Of a stretch of 64,000 nt of DNA, positions 14,176 to 30,965 are shown piece after piece; the stretch's first letter is position 1, and each line of letters opens with the position of its first letter. The notes beneath the pieces are model-generated. The model did not search any database. It was given only the letters and a program-made list of their open reading frames with translations, and was not told where the DNA came from. The position numbers were made by a program, and so were the translations under genes. Source of the DNA: Diphasiastrum complanatum (lineage: Eukaryota > Streptophyta > Lycopodiopsida > Lycopodiales > Lycopodiaceae); assembly GCA_029204225.1 (NCBI GenBank), contig MU831971.1, positions 29,833 through 93,832 of the forward strand, given 5' to 3'.

Positions 14176-14828
14176 TGTGAAAAACTCAGATCCAAAAGAT
14201 GCTAAAGTTTCATAAAGATCTTGGCCATGGAAGTTATGCACATCTAGATTGAAAAAATGATAGAAATTGTGATGTTAAGCATACTAAACATCAACTAAAC
14301 ATCAAAATCTGATCATAAGCTTCCACAAACAGAAACTTGCTGTCCCTGTCCGTACTTCAGAGCCTACAACCTGCATTTCACACGTGTGAAGCCATAGCAA
14401 CAAAGAAATCACAATTCTAGTGGCTAGAATGCAAGATATGAACAAAAAAGTGAGAGAGAAGAAGATGGATCTTCAAAGAGCATAACATTCATTCAATAGA
14501 ATGAAAATGAGATGTGTACATACTCGTGGAGATGGCTATTTATAGCAGCCATAGTGCCTCTTGGCCACTTGTCTTATGATAGGCTAAAATTGGGGTCCAA
14601 TAGGATTCACCCATATACCTAGAAATTTGGTCAAATAGGAATGCACCAAATTATGAGCCAATAGAAGAGCTCCACACTCGACCTCCTCTAATTAATGTGA
14701 CCTCAAAAGTAGTGTACACATACTTTGGGCCTCTACATACATGTATGAACCTATCTCTAACTTTTATTTGGCCATAGGCCTACAAAATCTCAAGTTAGGA
14801 AAATACTACTAGTTGACAATTTTTCACA
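14176..14828 (-). repeat. 3' LTR of element A
   Basis: The terminal inverted bases are TGTGAAAAA and TTTTTCACA. A TATA box (minus-strand CTATAAATAG, 14,536-14,545) and a 14-bp palindrome TTCACACGTGTGAA (14,377-14,390) lie inside. It is preceded in the sense direction by the polypurine tract GAAGAGGGAG (14,829-14,838). The gag-pol stop codon is formed by the first bases of this LTR. Confidence 0.95.
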
Positions 14829-17800
14829 CTCCCTCTTCAACTAGTTTTAGCATAGATTTAGAAAGTACACCAAGACTTGTTCTATGCTTGAAAAATAAGT
14901 CCTTTCCCAATGCTTTGGTAAAGATATCAGCCACACATTCCTTTGATGGGACATGTTCAAGCTTGATCTCTTTTGCCAACACTTGTTCTCTCACAAAATG
15001 GTAAGCCACCTCGATATGTTTGCTCCTTGCATGGAAAACCGGATTGCTTGCTAGACTTTGGGCTGAAAGGTTGTCACAAAAGATGATTGGACTCTCTGAA
15101 AAATCCAGCAAATGAAGCTCCATAATCATCCTCTTGATCCACACCATCTCCTTTGTGCATGATGTCAAAGCTTTGTACTCGGCCTCACTAGAAGAAAGTG
15201 ATATAGTTGCTTGTTTCTTCGACATCCATGAGATAGCTCCATCACCTATGAAAATAGCATGTGCATTTATGGATTTTCTATCCATAAGGTCTCCTGCAAA
15301 ATCTGAATCTGAAAAACCAAATAAGTTAGGTGATGAGCCTCTATAAACAATGCCAAAATCTTTTGTTCCCGAGATGTATCTCAAGATCCTCTTTCCTAGT
15401 TTCCAATGTTCTATGCTAGGATCTTGCATGAATTGGCTTAATCTACCAACACAATAAGATAAATCAGGTCTTGTGATGGTTAGATATATAAGAGAACCTA
15501 TTAGCTTCCTATAGAGAGTAATGTCCTCGAAGGATCTTTCATTACCTCTTATAGTTAGCTTTACATGTGATTCCATAGGTGTATCAATAGGATTTGCATC
15601 TACCATATGAAATCTATTGAGAATAGAAATAGCATACTTCTCTTGTGAAATAAAAGTGATTTGAGAAGTTCTAATTACTTCTATTCCTAAGATATAGCTC
15701 AAAAGACCAAGATCATGCACTTCAAATTCCTTTTTTAGTGCTTTCTTGATATCTTCTATATCTTCCTTGTTCCCTCCACTTAAAATAATGTCATCCACAT
15801 AAATTAGAAGGATTGTAACATCATTAGCACTAATTCTAAAGTAAAGTGAATGATCATACTCACTCATAGTGAAGTTTTGAGAAAGTAGAAAAGAGTTAAG
15901 CCTAGCATACCAACTCCTTGGTGCTTGCTTAAGACCATACAAACTTTTTTGTAGAAAACACACATGATTAGGCTTGCTATGAGAAACATAGCTCTCGGGT
16001 TGCTCCATGTAGACTTCCTCTTCAAGATCACCATTCAAGAAAGCATTAGAAATGTCTAATTGCCAAAGATCCCATCCATAAAGAGTTGCAAGGGAAATGA
16101 TTACTCTTATGCTCACCATCTTTGCCACGGGTGCAAAGGTTTCCTCATAGTCAATGCCATGCTCTTGAGCATAACCTTTAGCCACTAACCTTGCCTTCAA
16201 CTTGTTGATAGATCCATCTTGATTTGTCTTTACCTTGAAGATCCATTTGCATCCAATTGCACTTTTGCCCTTTGGAAGCTCCACCAATCTCCATGTGTTG
16301 TTCTTCATAAGTGCTTCAAACTCAAGATCCATTGCTTGGATCCATTCCTCTTTTTGCCTTGCTTCATCTACACATGAAGGTACATCAAAAGAAGTTAGGA
16401 AAGCATAGTTGGATCCATCCACCACTTGCTTACCTTTGCCATCATAAGTGAGCCTTGAGGGTTTCACTTTATGCCTTGGAGTTCTCCTTGGAATTTGACT
16501 TGAAGAGGCTTCTTCAACATCCACATCCAATGTGTCATCAACTCCATTGTCATCAAGCACATTAGTTGCAACAACACCATCATCACTTGAAACAACTTTT
16601 GGAATGTTACCTTCATCAAAAATGACATCCCTACTTGTGAACACTTTCTTGATTGAAGGAACATAAATCCTATATGCTTTGCTTACTTCACTATAACCAA
16701 CAAAAATGCCCTTTCTTGAAGATGGATCCTCCTTAGTTCTATCATCAAGAGTAATGTTGAAGTAGCAAATGCATCCAAAAGTTCTTAGAAACTTGACATT
16801 AGGCTTCGTACCAAACAAAGCTTCAAAAGGGGTTTTTCCTTCCAATACAACACTTGGCCATCTATTGCATAGGAAATTTGCACACAACAAAGCATCACTC
16901 CAAAAAGGTTTAGGAAGATTAGCATTCAATCTCATTGCCTTTGCACTCTCACACAAGGTTCTATTCTTCCTCTCGGCCACTCCATTTTGTTGTGGTGTTC
17001 TTGGACATGTGTACTCCCTCTTGATCCCATGCTCATCGCAAAAGGCTTTGAATTTGTTAGAAATGTATTCACCACCATTGTCGCTCCTCAAGCATTTGAT
17101 TTTGGTTGTAAATTGAGTCTCAATAGCAACTTTGAACTTGACAAACACATCAAACACCTCATCCTTGCTCTTTAGTAGATAAACCCAACAAAATCTACTA
17201 AAATCATCAATGAAAGTTACATACATCTTAGCACCTCCATTGCTAATTGTAGTAACACCATGAATATCCGAATGCAAGAGAGAAAAAGGCATCTTAGATC
17301 TAGATATAGATCTAGTATATGGCAATCTATGTGATTTAGACAAAGCACATTCTTCACAAACATGATTCAAGCAAGTAAGAGACTTGGGAAGTCCCCTTAC
17401 TACCTCCTTTTTGGCTATTACCTCCAAGGCCTTGTAGTTGAGATGTCCCATCCTTTTATGCCATACCTCTTGAATTGACATTTGTTCATTTGCCATGCAT
17501 CCAACTTGGTTAGCAACAACACATGCATCAAGCTTGAACAATTTCCCTTGCCTTTTCCCTTTTGCAATGATACTACACCCCTTTTTGATCAAGCAAGCAT
17601 CACCATCAAACTCAACTTTGAATCCTTTGTCAAGCATTTGGCTTACACTAAGTAAGTTCTTGGTAATGGATGGAATGAGCAAAACATCTTTCAATTCTAT
17701 ATTCCTATTTGTAGAAAGTGAAATAGGAATTGTGCCAATCCCCTTGATTGCACACTCACCATCATTTGCGGTATAGATTACCTTCCTATCACCATCAAAT

Positions 17801-18774
17801 GCCATTAAAGATGAAAAATACTCTTTATGATATGTCATATGAGAAGTGGCTCCACTATCAATCCACCAAGGATCAATGTCTCCATGATTAGCCAACAAGC
17901 AAGATGACATAACAAAAGCATCATTTGAAAGAAGCTCATCCCCACCCTCATCAATAGTTAGATTGGTTTGCTTTTCCCCTTGATCCCTCTTTTTCTTAAA
18001 ACAATCACTAGCAAAATGCCCTTTGACTCCACAATAGAAACATTTTAGCTTAGATCTATCCTTCTTTTTGCCAAAAGTAGAGTGCTCACCTTGGTCTTGC
18101 CCTTTAGACCAATTGCTTTTACCTTTGCCCTTGAACTTGCCTTTAGAGAACATTGCCTCCTCTTCTCCTCCTTGAGATGTAGAAGATGCTCCCACTCTTG
18201 CTTGCAACCTGAATTCTTCAGCCAACAAGACCTCTTGCAAGTCTCCAACACTTGGTAAACATTTTTGGATAGCATAACTTTGAACAAGATTAGCATGATC
18301 ATCCAACAAGCCATTGAGAATCACTTGAACAAGCTCCTCATTATTTATGCCATCATTAATGCATGCTAACTCATCATTCAATGCTTTAACTCTCAAAACA
18401 AAAGCATGTCCATTCTCACTCTTCTTTTGCATACAAGAAAAGATTTGCCTTCTTAAAGTCAACACTCTAGAAGTAGACTTGGATTCATAAACCTTCTTCA
18501 AGGCTTCCCAAGCTTCACTAGATGATGTGCACTTACCAACCTCTTTGATAAGCTCATTTGTCACATTCATCTTGATCATGTGAAGGGCTTTCTTTGCCCT
18601 CTTGTCATACCTCAATTGTTCTTGAGGTGCCAAAGGTCTCTCCTCCACACCTACAACAATATCCATCAACTCATTCATCTCAAGCAAAGACTCCATCCTT
18701 ACTTTCCAAGTAGAATAGTTGAGGGAGGTAAGCCTATCATTGCTTTCCAACATGTAGCCTCCATTTGTAGCCAT
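14824..18774 (-). CDS. Intact copia gag-pol polyprotein, 1316 residues
   Basis: This single frame encodes everything the element needs to copy itself. Gag occupies the first 240 or so residues, ending in a basic region and the zinc knuckle CFYCGVKGHFASDC (near 243-256). The aspartic protease has WWIDSGATSHM (near 301). Integrase shows the HHCC module (HKRMGHLNY near 436, CEECALSKSH near 470) and the DDE core with HSDIHG (about 498), LRSDNGGEY (about 561) and GVAERKNRT (about 601). Reverse transcriptase runs from WIFKVKTNQDG (about 841) through YVDDIIL (about 990). RNase H includes SDSDFAGD and SSSEAEYKAL (about 1155-1200). There are no stops or frameshifts and all catalytic residues I can check are present. 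The frame crosses the polypurine tract and stops at a TGA inside the LTR. The start is the first ATG of the conserved gag start (MATNGGYMLES). Confidence 0.97.
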   Translation of the reverse strand: MATNGGYMLESNDRLTSLNYSTWKVRMESLLEMNELMDIVVGVEERPLAPQEQLRYDKRAKKALHMIKMNVTNELIKEVGKCTSSSEAWEALKKVYESKSTSRVLTLRRQIFSCMQKKSENGHAFVLRVKALNDELACINDGINNEELVQVILNGLLDDHANLVQSYAIQKCLPSVGDLQEVLLAEEFRLQARVGASSTSQGGEEEAMFSKGKFKGKGKSNWSKGQDQGEHSTFGKKKDRSKLKCFYCGVKGHFASDCFKKKRDQGEKQTNLTIDEGGDELLSNDAFVMSSCLLANHGDIDPWWIDSGATSHMTYHKEYFSSLMAFDGDRKVIYTANDGECAIKGIGTIPISLSTNRNIELKDVLLIPSITKNLLSVSQMLDKGFKVEFDGDACLIKKGCSIIAKGKRQGKLFKLDACVVANQVGCMANEQMSIQEVWHKRMGHLNYKALEVIAKKEVVRGLPKSLTCLNHVCEECALSKSHRLPYTRSISRSKMPFSLLHSDIHGVTTISNGGAKMYVTFIDDFSRFCWVYLLKSKDEVFDVFVKFKVAIETQFTTKIKCLRSDNGGEYISNKFKAFCDEHGIKREYTCPRTPQQNGVAERKNRTLCESAKAMRLNANLPKPFWSDALLCANFLCNRWPSVVLEGKTPFEALFGTKPNVKFLRTFGCICYFNITLDDRTKEDPSSRKGIFVGYSEVSKAYRIYVPSIKKVFTSRDVIFDEGNIPKVVSSDDGVVATNVLDDNGVDDTLDVDVEEASSSQIPRRTPRHKVKPSRLTYDGKGKQVVDGSNYAFLTSFDVPSCVDEARQKEEWIQAMDLEFEALMKNNTWRLVELPKGKSAIGCKWIFKVKTNQDGSINKLKARLVAKGYAQEHGIDYEETFAPVAKMVSIRVIISLATLYGWDLWQLDISNAFLNGDLEEEVYMEQPESYVSHSKPNHVCFLQKSLYGLKQAPRSWYARLNSFLLSQNFTMSEYDHSLYFRISANDVTILLIYVDDIILSGGNKEDIEDIKKALKKEFEVHDLGLLSYILGIEVIRTSQITFISQEKYAISILNRFHMVDANPIDTPMESHVKLTIRGNERSFEDITLYRKLIGSLIYLTITRPDLSYCVGRLSQFMQDPSIEHWKLGKRILRYISGTKDFGIVYRGSSPNLFGFSDSDFAGDLMDRKSINAHAIFIGDGAISWMSKKQATISLSSSEAEYKALTSCTKEMVWIKRMIMELHLLDFSESPIIFCDNLSAQSLASNPVFHARSKHIEVAYHFVREQVLAKEIKLEHVPSKECVADIFTKALGKDLFFKHRTSLGVLSKSMLKLVEEGV
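14829..14838 (-). other. Polypurine tract of element A
   Basis: On the minus strand GAAGAGGGAG ends directly at the LTR TGTGAAAAA. It encodes the last residues of the polyprotein (EEGV), so priming site and coding sequence overlap. Confidence 0.85.
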
Positions 18775-23509: not shown

Positions 23510-23841
23510 GTTGCGGTCGATTGAGGTCCGGCTCAAGTCGAGGTTTAAGTTGGCAGTCGGTTAAGAGGTGACTGTGGCCTCTAGTTGAGATTCGAGGTCA
23601 GTGCTCCGGTTGAGATTTAACTGAAACGCTCCAGTTGAAATTTCACTGAAACGCTTCGGTTGAGATCTAATGGGACACGTCGGTTGAGATGCGAGCAAGT
23701 GCTCTGGTTGAGATTTGAGCAGAGTGCTCCGGTTGAGATGTAATGGAACACGTCGGTTGAGATGCGAGCAAGTGCTCTGGTTGAGATTTGAACAGAGTGC
23801 TCCGGCTGAGATCTAATAGAACACATCGGTTGAGATGCGAG
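23510..23841 (-). repeat. 24-25 bp minisatellite, left part
   Basis: About ten imperfect copies of a CGGTTGAGATNTGAGCAGAGTGCTC-like unit form the leader of the gypsy element. The last copies show a higher-order pattern in which three variants (ending AAGTGCTC, AGAGTGCTC and AACACGT) repeat every 73 bp. The array continues after element B at 30,163. Short frames in it are by-products of the repeat. Confidence 0.85.
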
Positions 23842-24637
23842 TGACAAAATTTTCAAAATTTACACGTGTGGGGAGTGTCCACAAGAGTGACTGACCTTAA
23901 TTAAGCTTTGTGATTGGCACTATAACTTGATTCTAGATTGATCAACAAAATCTAGTTCAGAAGAAATGGCTAATCCACAATCTAGCATGCTAATCAACAT
24001 AATATAATAGCAATGAATCAAAGAATGAATAAAAATACAAGATTTCAATGTATGAGCACTAGCCTCAACACGAGTTAGAGAGAGAGAGAGCTAGAGAGAT
24101 AACAAGCAGTATTTGTTTAGATCCAAAATGGCATGAGATAGCTACAAAACTTTGGTTCTTCATGGCATTGATTGTGAGAGCTACACATATTTATAGAGTT
24201 TGAGGTAGCTCGAGGTAGAACCATATCTATCCACTCCAAAATGACATCTAAAGTGACATCTAGAGTCTATGTGACATTTGTCACTTGTCATGCATGAAAT
24301 TCTACCAACTTTTTACAAGTGTACTAGTTCTAACTAGAAATGTCCAAATCATCATTCTTGTGTCCATTAAACTTTGTGCATGCCTTGCATGTCACTATGG
24401 ATCACTTACAATAAATGCATGTGAGTTGCCACGAGTTTCTACAAGCATAATCATGCTAATTCTATGTCTACAAACTATATGCAAGTTGCTTTTATCAAAC
24501 TAGATAATACATAACCATGTAGCTTGGGTTCTATGTAGGCCAAACTTGGCATTTTTCATTAATGAGCTACATACTTGCATGGTACAACATTTGTAGCAAG
24601 CCAAGAAATCAATATGGATTGTTTTTCAATTTTAACA
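23842..24637 (-). repeat. 3' LTR of element B
   Basis: It starts TGACAAAATTTTCAAAATTT on the plus strand and ends TTTTAACA. It keeps a TATA-like minus-strand CTCTATAAATATG (near 24,187-24,199) and contains ACACGTGT near its end. Confidence 0.9.
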
Positions 24638-24654: not shown

Positions 24655-27600
24655 CTATATTGATCTGAACATGGATCTTGGTATAACTCCAAGGTTGGCT
24701 CTATGCTTGTTGAAGGAACTTTTGCTCAAAGGTTTGGTGAGCATATCTGCAATGCAAGATGATGTGTCGATGTGCTCCAATATGATTTCACCTCCAATGA
24801 GCTTCTCTCTCACGAAGTGATGTGCAACTTTGATATGCTTGCTCCTTGCATGGAATATTGGGTTGTTGGCAAGGGCTTGAGCTGAAATGTTGTCACACAT
24901 GATCATAGGTATATTTTCTTCCATAATTATCTTTAGCTCCACTAGTAACCTCTTGATCCAAAGCACTTCCTTTGCTGTTGTAGTGAGTGCCTTGTACTCA
25001 GCTTCACATGATGAGAGTGATACAGTATCTTGCTTTTTGGAAAGCCAAGATATCAAGTTTCCTCCAAGATATATGACATAAGCACTTGTAGATTTTTGAT
25101 CTGCTCTATCACTTGCAAAATCCGAGTCAAAATAACCAATAATAGAAAGATCTTCACTTTTATACAATAAACCAAGATCAAAAGTTGAAGATATATATCT
25201 AAGCACTCTCTTGGCCTTTTTCCAATGATAAATTGAAGGATTTTGCATAGCCTGGCTCAACTTATGAACACTAAAGCTTATGTCAGGTCTAGCTATTGTG
25301 AGCCAAATTCAGGAGCCTATAAGACTTCTAAAAAGTGTGATGTCCTCGAAGGATCTTTCATCACCTTTGTTAGAGTCCTTTACATTTTGCTCCATAGGTG
25401 TTTCTATACTCTTACAATTCAACATATTGAACTTTTTAAACATTGAAAGAGCACACTTAGATTGACATACAAAAGCTTTATCTTTAAGAAAGTCAATCTC
25501 TAATCCTAGAATATAGTGAATTTTTCCAAGATCTTGCATCTTGAACTCTTTTCCAAGTGCAATCTTGGTTTCCTCAACTAACTTGATACAACTTCCTGTC
25601 AGAATGATATCATCAACATAAATAAGAAGGATGACAATATCTTTATCACAAAACTTGACATATAAGGAAGGATCATAGTTACTAAGATTAAATCCTAGTG
25701 ACTCAAGGAAGGTGTTAAGTCGAGAATACCATGACCTTGGAGCTTGTTTTAGTCCATATAAACTTTTGAAGAGCAAGCAAACTTTTCCTTCATCATGGAT
25801 GAACCCAATAGATTGATCCATATAGATCTCTTCTTCTAGATAGCCATTAAGAAATGCATTAGAAACATCTAGTTGAAGAATTTGCCAATTGAAAAAACAA
25901 AATTATGATTCTAATTGACACCATCTTTGCAACTGGGGCAAAGGTCTCCTCAAAATCCAGTCCATATACTTGAGCAAATCCTTTAGCACAAAGCCTAGTC
26001 TTGTACTTGTTGATTGTGCCATCTTGATTATACTTGATTCAAAAAACCATTTGCAACCAATGGTATGCTTTTTGGATGGAAGATCCACAAGCTCCCATGT
26101 ATTATTGGCCATCAAAGCATCATATTCTTCCTTCATGGCAAGATATCATTCCTTTGAGTTGATAGCATCATATACATCCTTTGGCTCTTCATGAGAAATA
26201 AAATAGGCACAATTAGTGGAGCTGATTTCCACTTGCTTTCCTCTATCTTCATAGGTAAGCCTTCTAGGCTCAGATCTTTCTCTTTGAGATCTCCTTGGTT
26301 AAAAAATTTGAGGTGACTCCTCCTCAAATCTCGACCCCATCTCTCCATGATGATTGGAGTATCTTTGTGAGAATCTTTGAACTCAGCCTTCTCAAGAATG
26401 TATTTTTGATCTTCATGGAATATCACATCTCTACTCTCAATTGTAGTTGAGGTAGAGGGAACATAGATCCTGTAAGCTTTCTTGTTGGATGCATATCCAA
26501 CCATGATCCCTTTAACAGAATTAGGATCATCTCTTTTCCTTGTTTCCAAGGGCATATTAACAAAGCAAGTACAACCAAAAACTCTAAGGTGATCTACCTC
26601 AGGTTTTTTCTGAAACAAGACTTCAAAAGGTGTTTTTCCAGCAAGAGCATTGTGAGATAATCTATTGCACAAATAGTTTGCACAATTTATAACTTCACCC
26701 CAATATTCAATAGGCAAAGAAGCTGCTACTCGAATTGCTTTAGCACATTCACATAAAGATCTATTTTTCCTCTCAGCTACTCCATTTTGGGATGGAGAAT
26801 AGGCACAAGAAAATTCTCTCTTTATTCCTTCACCTTCACAGTAATTATGAAACTTGTTGGAGATATATTCACCTCCTCCATCGCATCTTAAAGTTTGAAC
26901 TTTGCAAGAAAACTGTTTTTCTACATAAGCTTTGAATTTAAGGAAGTGATAAAAAACCATAGCCTTTGAAGAAAGTAGATACAACCAAGTGTATCCAGTA
27001 AAGTCATCAATAAAGGTAACAAAACATGTTGCACCACCAATACTTTTAGAAGAGAAAAAATGTACATCTGAATGTATGAGTTCCAATGGATAAGTAGTCT
27101 TTATAAAAGACTTCTGATATGGCTTTCTGTGTGACTTTGCAATGGCACAAGCCTCACAAGGCTTGAAATCTTTAGAAAGAGATTTTGGAAGACCAAAAGC
27201 CTTCTCCTTCTTAACCATAGAAGACATAGATGTAAAGTTAGGATGTCCCAATCTTCTATGCCGCAGCTCCTCCTTAGATAACAAAGCAACTTCACAAAGG
27301 TTTGCATTCTCATAAGAATTCAACTTAAAAATTCCACCACATCTAGTTCCATCAGCAAGGATCTCATCTTTTCTCTTGATAAAACAAGTATTGGAGTTGA
27401 ACTTTACATCACAACCATTATCAAGCAACTTTCCCACACTAATTAGGTTCTTTGTAAGTTTTGGAATGAAAAGAACATTAGAAAGTGCAAGAACTTTTGA
27501 AGAAGCAAGTTTCAATGGAATGTTGCCAATTCCTTCTATTGGACACTCATGATCATTAGCTATGTAAATAGATCTCTTGAGTCCTTTGAAAGGTAAGATT

Positions 27601-28607
27601 GAGTCAAATGACTCCTTTGAACAACACATATGTGAAGAGGCTCCACAGTTTATGTACCAAGCTCCATGTTTCTTGAAAGGTGATGAAGAAAAACTGGACA
27701 CCATAAGTGATCCTTCTCCATCACTTGCAACAGAATCTTCTTCAATCTCTTTGGAGAGATTAGCTTGTCTGAGTTGATTTTTCTTCTTAAAGCAATTAGA
27801 GGCATAGTGCCCCTTTTTGCCACAGAAGAAGCACTTCACTTTCTTCTTCTTGGTTTTTGAGTTAGAGGGATGAGATGTTTCATCCTCTTCACCATCTTGA
27901 TCTCGATCTTTGGCTTTGTCTTTGTTGTATGCTTGAGAGAATTGGTTCTTACTCCTTCCTTTTGGCTTGCCTTTGACAAAGAGGGCTTTGTGAATTCCAC
28001 CATGTTCAAGTTTGTTCATCCTGGAGAGTTTATAGCTTTGTCTAGATTCTTCAGAAATAAGAATTCCTTGGAGCGTTTCTAGATTAGGTAACTCCTCCTT
28101 AATAGCAAAAGACTGAACAAGATTATCATAGTCATCTCTCAAGCCATTCAGTATGACTTGAACCAGCTCAACTTGGTTAATGGTAACACCAACACAGGAA
28201 AGCTCTCTATGTAAATCTTTAACTCTCAGAACATAGTTAGATGCACTCTCTTCAATTCTTTGGAAACTTTGAAAAATCTGATTCCTAAGAGTGAGTATTC
28301 TAGAAGTATTTTTTGCTTCATAGATGGTCTTTAGTGCATCCCAAGCTTCTTTGGCTATAGTGCAAGATCCTATCTCTCTCAAAATTTCATTAGATACATT
28401 CATCTTAATGAAATGTAGAGCCATTCTAGTTCTCTTCTTATATTTAGGAATTTCAACCTGTGCTTGAGGCTCCTCCTCAACACCAAGCACAATATCCATA
28501 ACATCCTGGAGAATCAAAACAGACTCCATTCTTAACTTCCAAATTGAGTAATTAGAAGTGTTTAGTCTTTCACTAACTTCTAGAAGATATCCTCCCTGAG
28601 ATGCCAT
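24655..28607 (-). pseudogene. Element B gag-pol, broken
   Basis: The first frame (28,607-26,133, 824 residues) holds gag with the zinc knuckle CFFCGKKGHYASNC (near residue 256), a protease region, and integrase with RCDGGGEYIS and GVAERKNRSL. In the protease the usual DSG active site reads NCG (AWYINCGASSHM, near 317), so the catalytic aspartate is lost. Reverse transcriptase starts in another frame (26,136-25,903, then a second shift). It continues at 25,821-25,309 with YGLKQAPRSWYSRLN and the intact IYVDDIIL motif. A TGA interrupts it near 25,309, and RNase H follows at 25,260-24,655 (YFDSDFASDRADQKSTSAYV, SSCEAEYKALT). The order is copia. The copy cannot make a full polyprotein. Confidence 0.93.
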
Positions 28608-29365: not shown

Positions 29366-29377
29366 GCTCTGATACCA

Positions 29378-30162
29378 TGACAAAATTTCTAGAATTTACA
29401 CGTGTGGGGAATGTCCACAAGAGTGACTGATCTTAATTAAGCTTTGTGATTGGCACTATAACCTGATTCTAGATTGATCAACAAAATCTAGTTCAGAAGA
29501 AATGGCTAATCCACAATCTAGCATGCTAATCAACATAGCATAATAGCAGTGAATCAAAGAATGAATAAAAATACAAGATTTCAATGTATGAGCATTAGCC
29601 TCAACACGAGTTAGAGAGAGAGAGCTAGAGAGATAACAAGCAATATTTGTTTAGATCCAAAATGGCATGAGATAGCTACAAAACTTTGGTTCTTCATGGC
29701 ATTGATTGTGTGGAGAGCTACACATATCTATAGAGTTTGAGGTAGCTCGAGGTAGAACCATATCTATCCACTCCAAAATGACATCTAGAGTCTATGTGAC
29801 ATTTGTCACTTGTCATGCATGAAATTCTACCAACTTTTTACAAGTGTACTAGTTCTAACTAGAAATGTCCAAATCATCATGCATGTGTCCATTAAACTTT
29901 GTGCATGCCTTGCATGTCACTATGGATCACTTACAATAAATGCATGTGAGTTGCCACGAGTTTCTACAAGTATAATCATGCTAATTCTATGTCTACAAAC
30001 TATATGCAAGTTGCATTTATCAAACTAGATAATACATAACCATGTAGCTCGAGTTCTATGTAGGCCAAACTTGGCATTTTTCATTAATGAGCTACATACT
30101 TGCATGGTACAACATTTGTAGCAAGCCAAGAAATCAATATGGATTGTTTTTCAATTTTAACA
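29378..30162 (-). repeat. 5' LTR of element B
   Basis: It matches the 3' LTR except for small indels and substitutions. The TATA position reads CTATAGATATG on the minus strand instead of CTATAAATATG, so the promoter is probably weakened. Confidence 0.9.
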
Positions 30163-30395
30163 GCGAGCAAGTGCTCCGATTGAGATTTGAGCAGAGTGCT
30201 CCCGTTGAGATCTGAGGAGAGTGCTCCGGTTGAAATCTGAACAGAGTGCTCCGGTCGAGATTTAACTGAACACTCCGGTTGAGATGTGAGCAAAATGCCC
30301 CAGTTGAGAACCAAGCGGAGTGCTCCGGTTGAGATGTGATAGGAGTGCTCCGGTCGAGTTTTGACTGAACACTCCAATTGAGATTTGAACGATGA
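30163..30395 (-). repeat. 24-25 bp minisatellite, right part
   Basis: About nine copies of the same TTGAGAT...GAGTGCTCCGG unit as at 23,510-23,841 continue here after the target duplication of element B. They show that the array was one block before insertion. Confidence 0.85.
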
Positions 30396-30416: not shown

Positions 30417-30489
30417 ATGTTCACTGATTCACTGAATCTGTGAACACGTTCTTTTTATCTCTTTCTTTTTCTTGGATTACTTTACTTCT

Positions 30490-30633
30490 TGTTGGAATAT
30501 CAATCCACACTCTAGAGAGAACTATCAAACAGGGCGAATAGCTCAGTGGTAGAGCATCCCATCCGGTATGAGGGAGGTCCTGGGTTCGAATCCTAGTATG
30601 TCCATTTAAATTATGATTTATGGATTTCTAACA
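30490..30633 (+). repeat. 5' LTR of the TRIM
   Basis: 144 bp, TG to CA, ending directly at the PBS. The tRNA-like part occupies positions 43-115 of the LTR. I see no TATA box. Confidence 0.93.
30532..30604 (+). tRNA. tRNA-like sequence inside the TRIM 5' LTR
   Basis: The 73-nt segment has an A box TAGCTCAGTGG (30,539-30,549) and a B box GGTTCGAATCC (30,583-30,593), both matching Pol III consensus. A 4-bp D stem (GCTC/GAGC), a 5-bp T stem (CTGGG/CCTAG) and a T loop TTCGAAT are present. The acceptor stem pairs except at one position. The anticodon arm is irregular: four pairs (TCCC/GGGA) and an 11-nt loop, so a working tRNA is unlikely. If the loop were regular, the anticodon position would read CGG. 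I read it as a tRNA-derived promoter module. Confidence 0.6.
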
Positions 30634-30749
30634 TGGTATCAGAGCCAAGTTAGACCTAACAGTTCATGGTGTCAAAGCCATGGTTAGGTGGCCCAAGTTG
30701 TGGGGCAGGTGACAACTAGGACCCCAACCAAGTGTGGCTTGAGGAGGGG

Positions 30750-30893
30750 TGTTGGAATATCAATCCACACTCTAGAGAGAACTATCAAACAGGGCGGATA
30801 CCTCAGTGGTAGAGCATCCCATCCGGTATCAGGGACGTCCTGGGTTCGAATCCTAGTCTGTCCATCCATATTATGATTTATGGATTTCTAACA
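30750..30893 (+). repeat. 3' LTR of the TRIM
   Basis: 144 bp, about 94 per cent identical to the 5' copy by my count. It starts after the polypurine tract. A TTTT run that could stop Pol III lies just outside it (30,895-30,898). Confidence 0.93.
30792..30864 (+). tRNA. tRNA-like sequence inside the TRIM 3' LTR
   Basis: This is the second copy, with the B box GGTTCGAATCC intact (30,843-30,853) and the A box reading TACCTCAGTGG (one change, 30,799-30,809). Here the acceptor stem pairs along all seven positions (GGGCGGA with TCTGTCC, two G-T pairs), better than in the 5' copy. One D-stem pair is lost. Confidence 0.6.
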
Positions 30894-30965
30894 CTTTTGT
30901 TGTTACGGATCTTTGTGGTTCTTCTTTTTATTAGACCTGTTACAGAGCAGAAGCATTACTCATGT

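Follow-up and report, generated by a model that had tools for sequence, protein, structure and literature searches.

A 404-bp element at positions 30490-30893 of a 64-kb stretch of DNA from the clubmoss Diphasiastrum complanatum (referred to here as the window) raises the question of whether a tRNA-like segment in each LTR of a miniature retrotransposon could act as a promoter for RNA polymerase III (Pol III). The window spans 29833-93832 of contig C453, and the host (Lycopodiales, Lycopodiaceae) is borne out by a protein encoded on contig C1 (L041:1679-2575, minus strand), which has 99% identity over 94% to O6H91_01G003900 of D. complanatum. The sequence-only reading had taken the locus for a TRIM, and this identification is secure. 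The two LTRs surround an internal region bounded by a primer-binding site (PBS), TGGTATCAGAGC, and a polypurine tract (PPT), GAGGAGGGG, and the whole is flanked by a near-perfect 5-bp target-site duplication (TSD; Table 1). We take the PBS to be of the initiator tRNA-Met (iMet) type. The LTRs differ at 8 positions over 144 nt (94% identity) with no gaps, and the longest ORF overlapping the element has only 62 amino acids.

Table 1. Features of the TRIM, in window coordinates
Feature	Position	Strand	Description
5´ target-site copy	30485..30489	+	CTTCT; 4/5 identical to 30894-30898
5´ LTR	30490..30633	+	144 bp, TGTT...AACA; 94% to 3´ LTR
tRNA-like segment, 5´ LTR	30532..30604	+	73 nt; Rfam RF00005, 45.1 bits; ARAGORN tRNA-Thr ggt
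A box, 5´ LTR	30539..30549	+	TAGCTCAGTGG; read from sequence
B box, 5´ LTR	30583..30593	+	GGTTCGAATCC; read from sequence
PBS	30634..30645	+	TGGTATCAGAGC; directly 3´ of 5´ LTR
Internal region	30634..30749	+	116 bp, non-coding
PPT	30741..30749	+	GAGGAGGGG; directly 5´ of 3´ LTR
3´ LTR	30750..30893	+	144 bp
tRNA-like segment, 3´ LTR	30792..30864	+	73 nt; Rfam RF00005, 38.9 bits
A box, 3´ LTR	30799..30809	+	TACCTCAGTGG; one departure (one G lost)
B box, 3´ LTR	30843..30853	+	GGTTCGAATCC; read from sequence
3´ target-site copy	30894..30898	+	CTTTT; 4/5 identical to 30485-30489

The tRNA-like character of the LTRs, first noted in the sequence-only reading together with A and B boxes, was recovered by Rfam. 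Both segments align end to end to the tRNA model (gathering score, 29 bits; E values of 2.2e-6 and 1.1e-4 when the full window was searched), and nothing else within the 64 kb reaches an Rfam gathering score. The B box is exact in both LTRs, and the A box of the 3´ LTR is one base off. Fourteen hand-picked 10-kb stretches of the same genome (140 kb) gave no Rfam match. ARAGORN, run with the bacterial code, called no tRNA in 20 such stretches, and made a single call in the window, a tRNA-Thr in the 5´ LTR only. Both boxes were found in 0 of 100000 random 144-mers generated as a control. Chance resemblance to a tRNA, for which nothing but the irregular anticodon arm speaks, is barely credible against these E values, the empty 140 kb and the random control. 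Two further features described by the sequence-only reading, the irregularity of that arm and the lack of a TATA box, were also seen: the anticodon arm has a 4-bp stem and an 11-nt loop, and TATA is absent from the + strand of both window LTRs. No Rfam match to 5S rRNA, the hallmark of Cassandra, was detected in the element; a tRNA was found instead.

Alternatively, the tRNA-like fold might have no promoter role and work in the RNA, where it could serve RNase P/Z processing, packaging or protection. The acceptor stem (6/7 pairs in the 5´ LTR and 7/7 in the 3´ LTR, with G-U counted and the pairing read by eye) and the T arm, on which tRNA processing enzymes depend, are better formed than the anticodon arm, which speaks for such a role. 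However, the folding energies of the two segments are not outstanding relative to shuffled sequences (z of 0.19 and -0.41), so the case for a tRNA lies in consensus rather than stability. A part in priming is further opposed by the finding of Kojima (2024; PMC10886601) that, in his families, the tRNA-like part is not complementary to the PBS. We therefore regard an RNA-level role as quite improbable.

To what extent is this one copy representative? A search of the 1.745-Gb assembly (5176 contigs), in which 40 of 1210 first-look candidates were scored, returned at least 45 family matches; with so few of the candidates scored, the family is probably larger than counted. Forty loci (L001-L040) were taken, of which L002, L003 and L005 were dropped as segmental duplicates with flanks common to others, leaving 37 distinct loci. 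L029 and L030, which both have the TSD GTGGC and are perhaps another duplicate pair, were kept among the 37. Because the loci were picked by likeness to the window copy, age and conservation are skewed toward young, similar copies. Within this set, 5-bp TSDs are perfect at 30 loci, carry one mismatch at 5 and are lacking at 2 (L007 and L024, where the outer LTR is incomplete or an array continues). Equal-length LTR pairs, present in 31/37 loci, differ at 0-8 of 144 sites (mean 2.8). Head-to-tail arrays that share LTRs within one 5-bp TSD were found at L018 (three LTRs) and L027 (five LTRs), and L007 also has three LTRs.

The tRNA-like segment is present in all 37 distinct loci examined, which rules out a later insertion into the window copy alone, the outcome that the sequence-only reading had named as fatal to the promoter idea. 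The tRNA-structure prediction that it had also called for gave at least one ARAGORN tRNA in 37/37 loci, mostly Thr(ggt), with Pro, Ile and Arg among the rest. The anticodon call is thus unstable among copies, and this instability, together with the irregular anticodon arm, makes a functional tRNA unlikely.

LTR elements of this kind have a name. Helenus, described by Kojima (2024; PMC10886601), comprises TRIMs with tRNA-derived sequence in their LTRs from fungi, animals and plants, and the same article proposes the name TRIMp3 for TRIMs with Pol III promoters. The earlier impression that a tRNA-based equivalent of Cassandra was undescribed therefore does not hold, since Helenus was published in 2024 with a plant example from Selaginella. 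The clubmoss element fits the description: at 404 bp with two 144-bp LTRs it lies within the size of a TRIM (<1000 bp), its PBS and PPT bound the internal region, and the Helenus box patterns TRGCY..YGG and GGTTC each occur in 71/75 full-length LTRs of the distinct loci, box A of the window 3´ LTR being one base off. The TSDs also agree, as Kojima gives 5-bp TSDs for plant and fungal Helenus (PMC10886601); the window copy itself matches at 4/5 positions. According to that article, no plant other than Selaginella moellendorffii has a characterised Helenus family, and its Helenus-1_SMo shares with the clubmoss element tRNA-derived sequence in both LTRs, the two box motifs, a PBS, a PPT and a lycophyte host (PMC10886601). 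The two differ in host, a clubmoss here, and in size (LTR 144 and internal region 116 bp, against 120 and 85 bp), a comparison made on published descriptions. Tandem arrays are a further likeness to Helenus, reported by Kojima for one zebrafish family, LTR-11_DR (PMC10886601). We conclude that the clubmoss element is a new family of Helenus-type TRIM, a kind already published in 2024. Among the papers listed in the literature searches we found no earlier report of a clubmoss TRIM with tRNA-like LTRs; Repbase and the article supplements may already hold the family. Nor did the literature searched yield papers on TRIMp3 or Helenus beyond PMC10886601.

Cassandra, which had been put forward as the known parallel, is indeed the right one: the LTR of this TRIM contains a Pol III promoter, its PBS is the same, and it too forms tandem arrays with common LTRs (PMC7215508). 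In contrast, the Cassandra promoter is derived from 5S rRNA and its LTRs are described as holding Pol III terminators (PMC7215508), whereas the clubmoss promoter candidate is tRNA-like and TTTT occurs in 0/37 elements. Ajax, another TRIM with a small-RNA-gene promoter in the LTR, differs in being 5S-derived and comes from two nemerteans (PMC10886601). tRNA-derived SINEs (SINE2) resemble the clubmoss element in their tRNA-like head with A and B boxes, but they are moved by non-LTR elements and lack LTRs, a PBS and a PPT. The clubmoss TRIM has all three and is not a SINE.

Retention of the boxes across copies, a check suggested at the outset, was scored over the 75 full-length LTRs with a tRNA-type A box (variable D-loop length) plus GGTTCGANTCC. 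The A-box pattern is present in 71/75 LTRs, GGTTCGANTCC in 69/75, and both in order in 65/75; at least one LTR has both boxes in 36/37 loci, and every full-length LTR has both in 27/37. In conservation, the A box ranks low among the stretches of these young copies, which counts against strong constraint. Minor alleles per site average 1.67 in the A-box region, compared to 0.26 in the 5´ LTR flank and 0.34 in the other flank, and the 11-nt A-box window is intact in 55/75 LTRs, compared to a mean of 64.6 for windows matched in G+C, and is outdone in conservation by 127 of 134 windows. The B-box window, scored at LTR positions 95-105 and thus shifted by one base from the motif (94-104), is intact in 70/75, near the mean of 68.4 for its G+C class. 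Given that G>A plus C>T make up 64/106 changes among the LTRs, part of this variation reflects deamination-type decay of inserted copies in a G+C-rich stretch. No selection on, or special protection of, the A box was seen in these young copies, all from loci resembling the window copy. The window copy also carries differences of another kind, in common with L002 and L003: at three of the 8 sites that distinguish its LTRs (30801, 30830 and 30836) the 3´ LTR has a C in place of the G of other copies, a change outside the common G>A/C>T pattern of decay.

The weak conservation of the A box bears on a reading in which the tRNA-like segment is a passenger. A SINE or tRNA pseudogene would have inserted into an LTR of an otherwise ordinary TRIM and been copied along with it, with Pol II transcribing the element from a weak promoter that lacks a TATA box. 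An A box no better kept than its flanks in young copies speaks for this reading. Against it, amplified copies still show a recognisable acceptor stem, D arm and T arm together with both boxes, and Cassandra and Helenus show that promoters of this type have been captured recurrently (PMC10886601). A duplication flanking the tRNA-like segment, as might be left by a SINE inserting into the LTR, was sought in the window 3´ LTR; only 4-5 nt repeats were found, and these are unconvincing. The passenger reading also draws on termination, because the element has no Pol III stop of its own. Taking both sides together, we consider it unlikely.

With TTTT absent from all 37 elements, a Pol III transcript could end only beyond the 3´ LTR, in the flanking DNA. 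Many tRNA-derived SINEs end their RNA in a like manner, at T runs outside the element. The first TTTT downstream of the 37 loci lies at a median of 90 nt and within 200 nt in 30/37, compared to 113 nt and 28/37 for an upstream control of equal length, and by these counts, which carry no statistical test, terminators are not clearly nearer downstream. Only 9% of 404-bp stretches of the window are free of TTTT, and simulation from the dinucleotide composition of the element gives absence in a fraction of 0.52. Since about half of the simulated sequences are likewise TTTT-free, the absence permits, and does not prove, Pol III read-through.

The enzymes that move the element would have to come from elsewhere, and the PBS offers one route to them. 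The sequence-only reading had pointed to a PBS in common with Copia, and this agrees with our scan: the 291 kb of sequence examined contain TGGTATCAGAGC at 20 further places, of which 8 are followed by Copia-type coding motifs in a simple motif scan, and none by a clear Gypsy motif set, the only such motif being FIDD, which is common to Copia integrases here. The remaining words have no motif or too little sequence downstream. The PBS words in L001-L003 belong to the window's Copia or its duplicates, and that in L060 lies 3´ of Gypsy ORFs. TSD length also fits Copia, as Kojima argued for fungal Helenus (PMC10886601). A common PBS is, however, not decisive for the partner, given that Cassandra has the same one (PMC7215508). 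The longest match to the TRIM, 17 nt, falls at the PBS of a Copia (L044:2241, minus strand; E of 1.7e-4 in L044 alone), which makes this Copia a lead for a candidate autonomous partner. Searches with PBS and LTR-start words found no element in the 291 kb that has TRIM sequence beyond the PBS region, and nothing convincing past the 17 nt of L044.

Copia elements also lie in the window itself. The nearer one is on the minus strand, with LTR stretches at 23842-24546 and 29378-30071 that are 95-99% alike, an ORF at 26133-28607 and a PBS at 29377; its nearer LTR stretch ends approximately 400 bp from the TRIM. A 25-bp minisatellite (GAGCAGAGTGCTCCGGTTGAGATTT) lies on both outer sides, at 23579-23846 and 30165-30388, as if this Copia had inserted into a minisatellite array. 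Another, at 14824-18774 (minus strand), retains an open polyprotein frame of 1316 amino acids with gag, zinc knuckle, integrase and reverse transcriptase domains. For a Copia polyprotein of the window, the best near-full-length relatives among the best 120 of 378 matches are only 36-38% identical, as would be anticipated in a lineage from which few sequences are known.

The best reading of these observations is that the element, a Helenus-type TRIM, is probably transcribed by Pol III and moved in trans by the enzymes of an autonomous element, most likely a Copia. This explanation starts from the LTR-retrotransposon anatomy, the tRNA-like segment in every locus examined, the many copies and the small LTR-LTR divergence, from which we infer the steps of transcription and copying. 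In this model, Pol III, recruited via the A and B boxes, would initiate a short distance 5´ of the tRNA-like segment of the 5´ LTR, and its transcript would cross the internal region and the 3´ LTR to stop at the first T run in the flank. LTR sequence 3´ of this initiation point could then serve as the repeated R region. The reverse transcriptase and integrase of the autonomous element, most likely Copia, would copy the TRIM from the iMet primer site, and insertion would generate the 5-bp duplication. Transcription of Helenus by Pol III was proposed by Kojima, who states that it is not yet shown (PMC10886601).

A bolder suggestion, which we offer tentatively, is that the family may be a recently active Pol III-driven LTR element without an internal Pol III stop, each transcript ending at a T run in its own flank, such that a SINE-like RNA end is combined with LTR-type copying. 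Together with the Selaginella family, it may represent a lineage of tRNA-driven TRIMs that has persisted for a long time in lycophytes. Helenus in plants, so far a single Selaginella family in Kojima's account (PMC10886601), now includes a second order of lycophytes. Young copies are numerous in this assembled genome, which makes the clubmoss family a good plant test bed for the idea that Pol III drives Helenus. Finally, ARAGORN calls a tRNA inside 37/37 loci, so elements of this kind may inflate the number of tRNA genes counted in such genomes.
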